Made by a program: the position numbers and the translations under genes
Origin: Clostridia bacterium
GTDB lineage: Bacteria > Bacillota > Clostridia > UBA1381 > UBA9506
DNA: 64,000 nucleotides
Assembly (NCBI GenBank): GCA_017416855.1
Contig: JAFQAZ010000011.1
Location: forward strand, 124,001 to 188,000
Direction of reading: 5' to 3'
Notes under the pieces: model-generated
Databases searched by the model: none
Told to the model about the DNA's origin: nothing
What the model saw: the letters and a program-made list of their open reading frames with translations, nothing else
Shown: positions 121-3,832 of the stretch, piece after piece
Numbering within the stretch: position 1 is the first letter of the stretch
Layout of the letters: each line of letters starts with the position of its first letter

Positions 121-153
121 AAGAGGCTGAAAAAGCTTAATTTTCAGCCTCTT
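121..153 (-). terminator. Hairpin overlapping the end of the Asp23/Gls24 gene
   Basis: An 11-bp perfect stem (GAGGCTGAAAA at 123-133, TTTTCAGCCTC at 141-151) has the Asp23/Gls24 stop codon in its loop. The U-rich tract after it on the minus strand is weak (CTTGTTTG), so it could be an attenuating or mRNA-protecting hairpin rather than an efficient terminator. Confidence 0.55.
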
Positions 154-526
154 CGTTAGCAGCATCTTTCTTTTTGCTTTCAGGAATAATACCTTCAACG
201 CAAACATCAACATGGGTTACAGTCAGATCAGTCATTGTTTCAATGTTACGTTTAATGTTTTCCTGCAATTCTGCTGCAACTTCCTGAATTTTTACGCCGT
301 AATCAACAACAATATGAACTTCAACCACAACGTTTTTTTCTACAGCTTCAATACGAACACTTTTGTTAGAGTTCTTTTTAACGATTTTTTCAACAATACC
401 GTCAGCCAGGGTGGTATAAAGAGCGGCGCCCTTTGTTTCTGCCACAGCCATAGCCGCAATAGACTGGATTACTTCGTCAGAAATGTTCACGGAACCGGTT
501 TCAATATAATTTGTATTTTCAGACAT
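137..526 (-). CDS. Asp23/Gls24 family envelope stress response protein
   Basis: The 129-residue product matches the Asp23/Gls24 family: an N-terminal stretch with ISDEVIQSIAAMAV, then an alternating charged and beta-rich core (VEVHIVVDYGVKIQEVAAEL) and a conserved DVCVEGI near the end. Members are cytoplasmic or membrane-associated proteins linked to cell-envelope homeostasis in Firmicutes; the molecular activity is not established. An AGGAGG ribosome binding site lies a few bases upstream of the ATG and a sigma-A-like promoter is present at 558-586. It appears monocistronic. Family membership is sure; cellular role is inference. Confidence 0.88.
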   Translation of the reverse strand: MSENTNYIETGSVNISDEVIQSIAAMAVAETKGAALYTTLADGIVEKIVKKNSNKSVRIEAVEKNVVVEVHIVVDYGVKIQEVAAELQENIKRNIETMTDLTVTHVDVCVEGIIPESKKKDAANEEAEN

Positions 527-647: not shown

Positions 648-679
648 AAAAAAACGGTGCAAGTTGCACCGCTTTTTTT
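648..679 (-). terminator. Intrinsic terminator of the 42-residue Asn/Gln peptide gene
   Basis: Stem CGGTGC/GCACCG (655-660 with 666-671) with a 5-base loop is flanked by seven A and seven T residues, so it can work in both directions. On the minus strand it follows the stop of the small peptide gene by a few bases, which supports that gene being expressed as its own short transcript. Confidence 0.8.
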
Positions 680-685
680 ATGTCA

Positions 686-814
686 TTAGTCGTTGTAGTT
701 GTTATTGTTTTTATTCTGCTGATTATTCTGATTTTTATTCTGTTGCTGATTGTTCTGGTTTTTGTTCTGCTGCTGATTGTTCTGATTGTTCTGGTTCTGA
801 TTTCTGTTATCCAT
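686..814 (-). CDS. 42-residue Asn/Gln-rich small protein
   Basis: The minus strand encodes a 42-residue peptide that starts MDNRNQNQ and ends NNNNYND. It holds 21 Asn and 13 Gln, so 34 of 42 residues are Asn or Gln. A nine-residue unit close to NQNNQQQNK recurs about three times. I believe it is real because an ideal AGGAGG lies 8 bases before the ATG (823-828) and a good intrinsic terminator follows the stop. There is no signal peptide, Cys or hydrophobic segment. Low-complexity Asn/Gln proteins occur in spore coats and as aggregation-prone proteins, but nothing here proves either. Function unknown. Confidence 0.72.
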   Translation of the reverse strand: MDNRNQNQNNQNNQQQNKNQNNQQQNKNQNNQQNKNNNNYND

Positions 815-918
815 TGTGATAACCTCCTGATTTTTTTTGTTTTGACGTTAAGTGGCCTTGATAAATCCTTTGCCAACAGTTATTCTAAACAAAAAATCAA
901 AAGATATACAATTTAAAT

Positions 919-1431
919 TTATTTTTTCTTTAAAAAACGAGAACCGACAAACTTCCAGGTGTATTTTATGCCGAAATACTTAACAGGGAGCATAACGATT
1001 GCGCTTACGATTCGTGAAGACAGTATCAGCATAATGGGATTCCCATATAAAAGGTGAAGCCAAAGAGTCGATAGACCTAAGTCAATGATAATTGTTTGCA
1101 GTATCAGACAAGGGAAGATGTGTCTGAAATCCTTTTTTTTATTAAATAAGAACAAACCGTAGGTCAAGGCATATAACGCTTCGTTTAAACCAAAGCCGGG
1201 GAAATAGGGGCCTTTAGGAAAAACCAACATTCCCAGTAAATCAGCAACAAAGCCAAAGATGGCACCAATCCAGGGACCGAATAACATAGCACAAAGAGAA
1301 GTTGGAACAAAACTGAAGCTGATTCTGAAAATTTGTGTCTCAACAGCGATAAATCTGGTTACCACAATGTGCAGTGCGAGCAAAAGGGCAATGGTTGCCA
1401 ACTTTCGTGTGGATAAAAAACGTTTTTGCAT
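919..1431 (-). CDS. folT: Folate ECF transporter S component (FolT-type)
   Basis: The 170-residue protein is a hydrophobic S component with about six membrane segments. It contains the pattern ISFSFVPTSLCAMLFGPW, then GAIFGFVADLLG and a later GFGLNEALYALTYGLF, typical of FolT/PdxU-like ECF substrate-binding subunits. It binds folates at the membrane and works with a shared EcfA-EcfA'-EcfT energising module encoded elsewhere. I start it at MQKRFLSTRK, with GAGGAAG upstream; a longer reading frame runs back to 1626 but would translate through the riboswitch. The THF riboswitch directly upstream is independent support for folate as the substrate. Confidence 0.9.
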   Translation of the reverse strand: MQKRFLSTRKLATIALLLALHIVVTRFIAVETQIFRISFSFVPTSLCAMLFGPWIGAIFGFVADLLGMLVFPKGPYFPGFGLNEALYALTYGLFLFNKKKDFRHIFPCLILQTIIIDLGLSTLWLHLLYGNPIMLILSSRIVSAIVMLPVKYFGIKYTWKFVGSRFLKKK

Positions 1432-1507: not shown

Positions 1508-1611
1508 GGCAGCGGAATGCAGTGATGATACCGCAAGTAATAGAAATTACTTTTCGTACAGTGGCAACTTCCCGTCCAACTGTCACTTAACGCATCAAAA
1601 CCTACTCTGCC
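1508..1611 (-). promoter_or_regulatory. Tetrahydrofolate (THF) riboswitch controlling folT
   Basis: Read on the minus strand, the segment contains the conserved THF-I blocks in order: GGCAGAGTAG, GCGTTAAGTG, GGACGGGAAGTTG, ACGAA, GCGGT and GCATTCCGCTGCC. The outer ends GGCAG (1607-1611) and CTGCC (1508-1512) pair to form P1. The element sits between a sigma-A-type promoter and folT, the usual THF riboswitch context in Firmicutes. Just after P1, GCCACAAAA can pair with TTTTGTGGC (about 1475-1510), sharing the last three bases of P1, so ligand-dependent switching between the two is plausible. There is no U tract after that hairpin, which favours translational control or another downstream mechanism. 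Confidence 0.88.
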
Positions 1612-1660: not shown

Positions 1661-1740
1661 TGCTTTTTATGAAAATAATTATTTTTCAGGATAGTTAAAC
1701 AGATTATGCACAAAATAGTTAAAAAACTTGAAGGATGAAA

Positions 1741-2754
1741 ATGATGAATAAAAGAATAGGAAAACAAACAGTTACACTTGAACACCCGCCTGTGATTTTA
1801 GGAACAGGCACAGTGGCAGGAAAAAAAGAAGGGGAAGGACCCATTGGAAAATATTTTGATGTGATTGCAGATGATAACGTGCTGGGTGCCAAAACCTGGG
1901 AAAAGGCCGAGAGTGGGTTTGCGAGCCGTGCGGGACGAGAAGCATTTAAAAAATGCGGCATCGAAAAAGAAAAAATTGATTATATTTTCGGCGGCGATTT
2001 GCTGAATCAATGCACCGGAACCAGCTATGGCATCCGTGAATTCGGAATTCCGTTCATAGGATTATATGGCGCTTGTTCCACGATGGCACTGGGCCTTTCT
2101 GTTGCTGCGAGCTATATTGACGGAGGCTATGCCGATTATTGTGCTGCCATCACATCCAGTCATTTTTGTTCGGCGGAGAAACAATTCCGGTTTCCTCTGG
2201 AATATGGTGGACAACGACCGCCCAGTGCACAATGGACAGTTACAGGTTCTGCTTGTGCAGTTTTGGGAAAGAGGGGAGAAGGGCCGGTGATTGACTGCAT
2301 AACGAATGGAAAAATTGTTGATAAAGGCATAACGGATGCCAATAATATGGGTGCTGCTATGGCACCTGCTGCAGCTGATACACTATTGACACATTTTCAG
2401 GATACTGGACGAACTCCCGATGACTATGATTTAATTGTAACAGGCGATTTAGGGGCTATTGGTAAATCTGTCGTAATTGATTTCCTGAAAGAAGACGGAT
2501 TTGACCTTTCAAAAAACTACAACGACTGCGGGCTGATTATTTTTGACGGAGAGACACAGGATACTCATTCCGGCGGTAGCGGTTGTGCTTGTGCGGGGCT
2601 GACCTTTTGCGGCTACATCTATTCGTTGTTAAAAAAAGGACAGTTAAACAAGGTTTTATTAGTGGCTACAGGTGCTCTGCAAAGTGCTTTAGTGGTGCAA
2701 CAGGGAGAAAGCATGCCGGGAATTGCCCATGCAGTCAGTATTCAAAACTGCTGA
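1741..2754 (+). CDS. spoVAD: Stage V sporulation protein AD (SpoVAD)
   Basis: The roughly 337-residue protein has the SpoVAD signatures: a thiolase/KAS-III-like fold, GPIGKYFDVIADD near the N terminus, GLYGACSTMALGL in the middle and SGGSGCACAGLTFCGYIY near the end. SpoVAD binds dipicolinic acid and is required for Ca-DPA uptake into the forespore together with the SpoVAC/SpoVAE membrane channel. The length is that of the family. The start at 1741 has GAAGG six bases upstream; an in-frame ATG at 1735 abuts that site. Notably, spoVAC and spoVAEb are not adjacent: folT is divergent on the left and spoIIP is convergent on the right, with only four bases between the two stop codons. Confidence 0.93.
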   Translation: MMNKRIGKQTVTLEHPPVILGTGTVAGKKEGEGPIGKYFDVIADDNVLGAKTWEKAESGFASRAGREAFKKCGIEKEKIDYIFGGDLLNQCTGTSYGIREFGIPFIGLYGACSTMALGLSVAASYIDGGYADYCAAITSSHFCSAEKQFRFPLEYGGQRPPSAQWTVTGSACAVLGKRGEGPVIDCITNGKIVDKGITDANNMGAAMAPAAADTLLTHFQDTGRTPDDYDLIVTGDLGAIGKSVVIDFLKEDGFDLSKNYNDCGLIIFDGETQDTHSGGSGCACAGLTFCGYIYSLLKKGQLNKVLLVATGALQSALVVQQGESMPGIAHAVSIQNC

Positions 2755-2758
2755 TTCG

Positions 2759-3832
2759 TTATTGCAAAACGGCCGCAATTGCTGTTGCGAGTAATTCAGA
2801 AGTGTTTTTAGCCTCTTCGGCGGTGTTGGCGGCCGTTCCGATTTCAATAATCATTGAACCTTTGGTTACGTGCTGATTAAAACGCTCAGTACGGATGTTA
2901 ATGGACCGACATAGTCCCGGCTGCATTAGGTTCAATTGATGCTGTATTTTTACGGCAAAGGCAAGATTATGACGCCACTGAGGGTGATGCAGCCCCATAG
3001 AATCGGTGCCGATGACAAACATAATCTGTGCTGCTTTTGAGCCGTTTTTCAATGTTACGGTTGGTTTTACGAGTGTTCCGTCATCCCGTTTGATGTAGTC
3101 GCGGTGGATATCTAAAACCACCTCTATGGAGGGATGCTCTGCAACATTCCGTTCAATAACGGTTAATGCCTTTTTGTAGGATTGGTTATATGACGGATTA
3201 TCGTTTTGTGTCACATCGTGTATAACAGATATCCCTTGACTTTCCAATGCCTCGGCAATTTCTTTCCCAACGCCTACGACATTTAACTCCTGATTCTCAT
3301 TTCGTGCTCCTTCGCTTTCACAGTATGCCTCTGAGGTGTGGGTGTGCATAATCAACACCTTAGGGTTTTCATCGGGCTTTGCGAAGGAAAGGGGAGTGTT
3401 AAGCAACGCTTCAGCATCAACAGTTACTTTGGGTGTATTGATAAACGTGATGTTTTTTGCTGAAATATCAGATTCTACAATGCTTTGCTTTTCGCTTTCA
3501 TGTTTCTCAGCTTGCTTTTTTAATATGCCGCCATATTTGGCGGCATATTTTTTGCTCATTACATCAGAACCGCGAATGGACAAAACGGATTTTGCCAAAA
3601 AGTCATAGGGCGAGTAATGCAGTTCTCTTTTTTCAGTTTCTTCAAACAAAACAACAGACTGATGAATACACTTCAATAAGAAATCAGAATTCAGCGTAAT
3701 ATGATTGGCAATACGTTGCGTGAATACGAGCAACAATATGCTGAGGAAAACAAATATAATGAGCAGCTTTGGCTTTGCAGCCTGAACAGCAACTACATGA
3801 CTTTTAAACCTTTTATTTCTTCTTCTTCTCAC
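2759..3832 (-). CDS. spoIIP: Stage II sporulation protein P (SpoIIP)
   Basis: The 357-residue protein has one N-terminal membrane segment (about residues 22-40) followed by an extracytoplasmic amidase_3-like domain. Zinc-site motifs are visible: HTHTSEAY, VLDIHRD and SMIIEIGTAANT near the C terminus. SpoIIP is the N-acetylmuramoyl-L-alanine amidase/endopeptidase that works with SpoIID and SpoIIM to thin septal peptidoglycan during engulfment. It starts at GTG with GGAG eight bases upstream. The usual neighbour gpr is not in this window. It is convergent with spoVAD; no terminator fits between them. Confidence 0.93.
   Translation of the reverse strand: MRRRRNKRFKSHVVAVQAAKPKLLIIFVFLSILLLVFTQRIANHITLNSDFLLKCIHQSVVLFEETEKRELHYSPYDFLAKSVLSIRGSDVMSKKYAAKYGGILKKQAEKHESEKQSIVESDISAKNITFINTPKVTVDAEALLNTPLSFAKPDENPKVLIMHTHTSEAYCESEGARNENQELNVVGVGKEIAEALESQGISVIHDVTQNDNPSYNQSYKKALTVIERNVAEHPSIEVVLDIHRDYIKRDDGTLVKPTVTLKNGSKAAQIMFVIGTDSMGLHHPQWRHNLAFAVKIQHQLNLMQPGLCRSINIRTERFNQHVTKGSMIIEIGTAANTAEEAKNTSELLATAIAAVLQ

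Follow-up and report, generated by a model that had tools for sequence, protein, structure and literature searches.

The 42-residue peptide encoded near the start of the window (the whole stretch of clostridial DNA analysed here, 64,000 nucleotides long) is made up largely of asparagine and glutamine, and is on balance probably a forespore-expressed reserve of amino acids and nitrogen in the spore core, similar to the gamma-type SASPs. Judged from its sequence and from those of its relatives, the open reading frame is a real gene, and many spore-forming bacteria have counterparts of it. Forespore expression of the family, as predicted from its promoters, is well supported, and we infer from there a reserve function, accumulation in the core and later degradation of the peptide.

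Read on the minus strand from 814 to 686, the gene translates to MDNRNQNQNNQNNQQQNKNQNNQQQNKNQNNQQNKNNNNYND, in which 21 Asn and 13 Gln make up 34 of the 42 residues. Translation thus confirmed the original prediction of an Asn/Gln gene of this size and position and supplied the strand, which had been left unstated; the plus strand across the same positions gives a Leu/Val-rich translation. The nine-residue repeat unit that had been proposed was also borne out, as a 27-base period with 2.7 copies and 86% matches. Codon use is mixed (11 AAC, 10 AAT, 12 CAG and 1 CAA), and the gene is therefore not a plain DNA repeat. The only other 12-codon run of Asn/Gln/Lys/His type in the genome of the window lies at G000:C2:143575-143609. 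Table 1 lists the features of the locus.

Table 1. Features of the peptide locus in the window.
Feature	Position	Strand	Basis
42-aa Asn/Gln peptide gene	686..814	-	ORF translation; frame intact in the syntenic copies of relatives
AGGAGG ribosome-binding site, 8 bases before ATG	823..828	-	sequence inspection
Intrinsic terminator, hairpin and T tract	648..678	-	terminator scan, folding; readable on + strand too
-35-like TGTATA of putative forespore (SigF/SigG-type) promoter	905..910	-	matrix score, register in relatives
-10-like TAGAATA, 17 bases past the -35-like element	881..887	-	promoter matrix
ECF transporter S component, co-oriented, upstream of peptide gene	919..1431	-	PF12822
THF riboswitch of ECF gene	1508..1611	-	RF01831, 81.3 bits
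Asp23-family gene, downstream of peptide gene	137..526	-	PF03780
spoVAD, divergent	1735..2754	+	PF07451

Three relatives (G003, G004 and G009) carry a peptide of 40-53 residues and the same make-up before the Asp23-family gene, with a ribosome site and an intact frame, and in a fourth (G008) an intact frame follows the same ECF gene. The check for frame conservation in close relatives, suggested along with the original prediction, therefore came out in favour of the gene. The stretches examined before the Asp23-family gene in G002 and G006 held no such peptide. Since the peptide is of low complexity, a protein-level search yielded little (matches in 2 of 61 genomes), and the family search used a DNA pattern that joins a ribosome site to an ATG and codons for the amide residues. 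This pattern demands GGAGG in every member, so that the strength of the ribosome site adds nothing independent in favour of the family. It matched 12 of the 95 genomes of an order sample, with 0/95 for the reversed control; the strict form hit 14 of 391 genomes in a class sample and a looser form 10 of 20 in a family sample. Across 84,980 species at least 118 stretches match, some unrelated proteins included, and those among the matches listed come mostly from Clostridia, with some from Bacilli and some unrelated proteins of other phyla. Natribacillus halophilus (L083), Ruminococcus sp. FMBCY1 (L173) and Emergencia timonensis (L146) are examples of carriers in culture. Because 377 of the 391 class genomes gave no hit, the peptide, as detected, is not a universal clostridial reserve. 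All 14 peptide-bearing class genomes have SpoVAD, compared with 282 of 391 overall; the chance of this would be 0.72^14, or about 1%, for independent genomes, an assumption that does not hold here. Neither Pfam nor NCBIfam holds a model for the pure Asn/Gln peptides scanned, and a literature search, with most subscription journals outside its coverage, brought up no paper recognised as describing them.

The family was defined from 103 pattern loci, of which 78 were kept; the 25 dropped comprised 4 duplicates, 7 removed by hand (other phyla, or the wanted frame missing) and 14 with long or Asn/Gln-poor proteins. The members have a median length of 37 residues and consist of 52% N, 20% Q, 10% K, 4% S, 3% R and 3% E, with about 2% hydrophobic residues, a median charge of +3 and extreme hydrophilicity, and this composition is a conserved property of the family. 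Per residue, the members contain 1.9 nitrogens in the median, and their median N/C ratio of 0.43 exceeds that of the one gamma-SASP (0.385) and the one alpha/beta-SASP from the window's genome (0.29) with which it was compared. Chains of this kind are expected to stay soluble, to lack a fold and to be readily digested. The cleavage site of GPR is of the EFASE type, and even a loose motif form of it occurs in 0 of the 78 members. Cysteine is found in 14 of the 78, each time within the last four residues, and a sub-group (L066, L078, L079, L093, L102, L108 and others) has Cys-Arg or Cys-Lys as its final two residues. The loci L058, L110, L117, L131 and L169 encode long membrane proteins that are Asn/Gln-rich at the N terminus (MDNQNNQNNQRPNNNKNQQ...) and may resemble FtsH.

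The forespore assignment comes from the regions upstream of these genes, where inspection by eye found a recurrent TG[CTA]ATA - 17 bases - [CTA]A.A.TA. Genes for alpha/beta-type SASPs (PF00269), present in 82 of the 95 order genomes and in all 12 peptide carriers, served as a reference. Their upstream regions were obtained for 14 of 30 loci; ten with the same layout, chosen by a SigF/SigG consensus, trained a matrix that was not tuned on the peptides, and four misfits were left out. After removal of two members with short upstream regions, 49 of 76 peptide genes scored above the threshold and 27 below, as against 22 above among 171 other genes of the same loci (Mann-Whitney p=2e-14), and the matrix also separated the peptide genes from shuffles. 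With one representative per cluster of upstream similarity, about 16 of 32 passed (p=9e-6). In a held-out set of 31 loci (38, less 5 under the same rules and 2 for short upstream regions) 16 passed and 15 fell below, somewhat fewer passing than in the first set. A forespore model that was loosened after the data had been seen fitted 57 of 76 genes and 2.7% of shuffles, while a SigA model stayed at chance level over the peptide upstream regions. In C. difficile the SigF and SigG promoters are described as very alike, which leaves no choice between the two factors here, and SASP genes and spoVA are reported to require SigG (PMC3789822, PMC7438776).

The window copy taken by itself has a modest promoter: its -10-like element has two to three mismatches to CATACTA/CAAAATA, and 3 of 60 shuffles of its own upstream region equal TGTATA-17-TAGAATA. 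It carries weight because the same register is kept in four genus relatives. One SASP gene of the same genome has a promoter of the same layout, TGCATA-17-CAAAATA. Neighbouring genes vary among loci: the nearest neighbours, 99 of 131 of which were scanned, include a Mur ligase in 12 cases and sporulation families in 7 (SpoIVB 3, SpoVAEB 2, SpoVAD 1, SpoIIIAA 1), so that no single partner is conserved. The peptide gene follows a SpoVAEB gene of the same strand at L066 and L094, at distances of 57 and 62 bases, and at L087 it comes 61 bases after an ORF that itself follows spoVAD; the promoter scores of these three loci rank within the lowest four, which fits co-transcription with spoVA. Other peptide loci flank spoIVB (3) or spoIIIAA (1).

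A gamma-SASP-like role for the clostridial peptides is suggested mainly by a series of loci in the Bacilli. The gamma-SASP gene of Bacillus sp. JCM 19034 has a short-chain dehydrogenase gene on one side and a DUF402 gene on the other, and at what appears to be the same locus Natribacillus halophilus (class Bacilli) encodes a pure Asn/Gln 59-mer. The downstream DUF402 neighbour is 63% identical between the two, a gene further upstream shares 53% identity with one in the vicinity of the JCM 19034 gamma-SASP, and promoter and ribosome site align; the dehydrogenase gene is not adjacent in Natribacillus. PF04259 has no match in the Natribacillus genome, while JCM 19034 and two Lysinibacillus genomes match. 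Two Geomicrobium carry at the matching place an Asn/Gln-rich 51-mer with one EFGSET stretch, scoring 24.4 and 22.8 bits against SASP_gamma, below the cut-off of 28.4; the DUF402 neighbour was confirmed in one of them (L156) and not in the fragment of the other (L138). Behind the same dehydrogenase, Salsuginibacillus encodes a 44-mer that contains AEFGQEQ, a placement read from the upstream side. We read this series as gamma-SASPs that would have been losing their protease sites and becoming pure amide peptides, with those of Geomicrobium and Salsuginibacillus as intermediates. The window copy and the clostridial copies seen lie outside the dehydrogenase/DUF402 locus, and their link to gamma-SASPs is meant as likeness in role, with no descent implied. 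As a separate observation, Lysinibacillus (L072, L090, L096, L101, L136, L164) has a conserved peptide of 49-51 residues, MGNNKHKNNKTQDNKKQQNQNQNAN..., with an Asn/Gln-rich N terminus and an EEFAEE- or EEFGEE-like stretch. The one copy scanned has no Pfam or NCBIfam match, and the two genomes searched have their PF04259 matches elsewhere; it is possibly another SASP-like family.

Gamma-type SASPs (SspE type; PF04259) share with the Asn/Gln peptides a small size, a low-complexity sequence rich in Gln and Asn (48% in the JCM 19034 protein), and a forespore-type promoter, the last at family level by the matrix and weakly in the window copy alone. In B. subtilis they are hypothesised to be an amino-acid reservoir, and Clostridia are reported to lack them (PMC8452069); Pfam detected none in the 95 order genomes, and it is mainly in Clostridia that the Asn/Gln peptides are found. 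The latter differ in having no PF04259 match (window peptide and pure peptides scanned), no GPR-like site, half the length and a far higher Asn/Gln share. As they would work in a like way but lack two defining features, they are best described as a variant of the gamma-SASPs and not as a member. Minor SASPs of Bacillus (SspK, SspN, SspO and others) are also tiny, forespore-specific proteins, from which the Asn/Gln peptides differ by the lack of a Pfam or NCBIfam match. Alpha/beta-type SASPs share the promoter layout, TG[CTA]ATA-17-CAAAATA in the same order, but are unrelated in sequence and entirely different in composition, and the window peptide has neither their DNA-binding fold nor a PF00269 match. 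The alpha/beta-SASP of the window's genome at L205:415-670 (G000:C2) matches PF00269 over positions 1-49 only and ends in an unusual tail, which may reflect truncation, a frameshift or real variation.

As a reserve, the peptide would be made in the forespore, presumably unfolded, and would accumulate in the spore core, where it would keep amide nitrogen and amino acids in densely packed form. After germination its breakdown would feed protein and nucleotide synthesis during outgrowth. Because all 78 members are devoid of a GPR-like site, the known release route of gamma-SASPs would be inapplicable, and release would require a peptidase other than GPR. The same forespore expression is equally compatible with a matrix or protectant of the core, in which unfolded chains rich in amides would turn the dehydrated interior into a crowded, gelled or vitrified state and so protect macromolecules; since both roles predict the same expression, sequence does not separate them. 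The hydrophilicity and positive charge of the chains suit such a matrix, and the Asn-rich repeats of GerG from Clostridioides difficile gel in vitro (PMC5241399). These repeats are, however, described as dispensable for GerG function in the same source, and the positional link to gamma-SASPs in the Bacilli points to a reserve, which makes a matrix role unlikely.

The original prediction had drawn from the nearby sporulation genes the hypothesis of a spore-coat or envelope role. Its link to sporulation stands, by way of the forespore-type promoters and SpoVAD, whereas the coat or envelope part is not supported. Coat genes are mother-cell genes under SigE or SigK (PMC3789822; also established knowledge), and at the same stringency the SigE model fitted 5 of 76 peptide genes (4.1% of shuffles) and the SigK model 8 of 76 (13.2% of shuffles), both at chance level, in contrast to the 57 of 76 for the forespore model. 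Together with SpoVAD in every peptide-bearing class genome, the forespore-type promoters point to the spore core as the place of the peptide. GerG, a spore protein with Asn-rich repeats, is under SigE control, and its repeats are also rich in Met, Pro, Gly and Ser, with about 30% Asn (PMC5241399); the promoter prediction gives the Asn/Gln family no such control. A mother-cell product of the coat or envelope, which the C-terminal cysteines could cross-link, is thus very improbable. Equally little weight can be given to the idea that the peptide assembles in a prion- or amyloid-like form that serves regulation or structure; the amide content and the nine-residue period of the window peptide would suit it, but the regular lysines and few hydrophobic residues suggest a soluble chain.

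In the window, the minus strand reads THF riboswitch, ECF S component, peptide gene, terminator and Asp23-family gene, with spoVAD and spoIIP beyond. spoVAD stands directly before spoIIP, which is on the opposite strand at 2759-3832, and within the window no spoVAE-type gene lies behind spoVAD. The peptide gene had been called isolated, which needs qualification, as the co-oriented ECF gene stops about 105 bases before its start. The perfect AGGAGG that had been reported eight bases before the ATG is present, and strong expression of the gene is plausibly predicted. Its own intrinsic terminator, also claimed, is real as a hairpin (-17.7 kcal/mol, z -5.7, with 0 of 200 shuffles as good) and may be shared with the ECF gene. 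The Asp23-family gene has its own sigma-70-type promoter-like site at 586-558. Because the terminator scan found no terminator between the ECF and peptide genes, a transcript of the ECF gene possibly reads into the peptide gene. The gene order is the same in genus relatives, and the peptide might be a small protein of vegetative cells, encoded on the folate-transporter transcript and expressed by read-through from the riboswitch-controlled gene; we give this little credence, since at other loci the peptide gene is differently flanked and has a forespore-type promoter of its own.

Although the frame is very short and of low complexity, a non-coding artefact or chance ORF is rejected: frame, start, ribosome site and composition are conserved across genera, the reversed control stayed empty, and of the window's 1063 stop-to-stop segments only that of the peptide has a 30-residue stretch with at least 50% Asn/Gln, which none of 50 first-order Markov copies of the window produced.

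A broader reading, which we offer tentatively and which may well not hold, is that Clostridia do have the gamma-SASP function, exerted by a widespread class of hidden, pure Asn/Gln forespore peptides that are unlocked by a peptidase independent of GPR, and that gamma-SASPs of the Bacilli became peptides of this kind by losing their protease sites. The class would be hidden from homology search because composition, not sequence, would be what is selected. These peptides would thus represent a class of proteins kept by composition and promoter and missed by annotation. If the reserve function is true, the family would be a concrete candidate for the missing spore reserve of Clostridia, and one that is present in cultured species.
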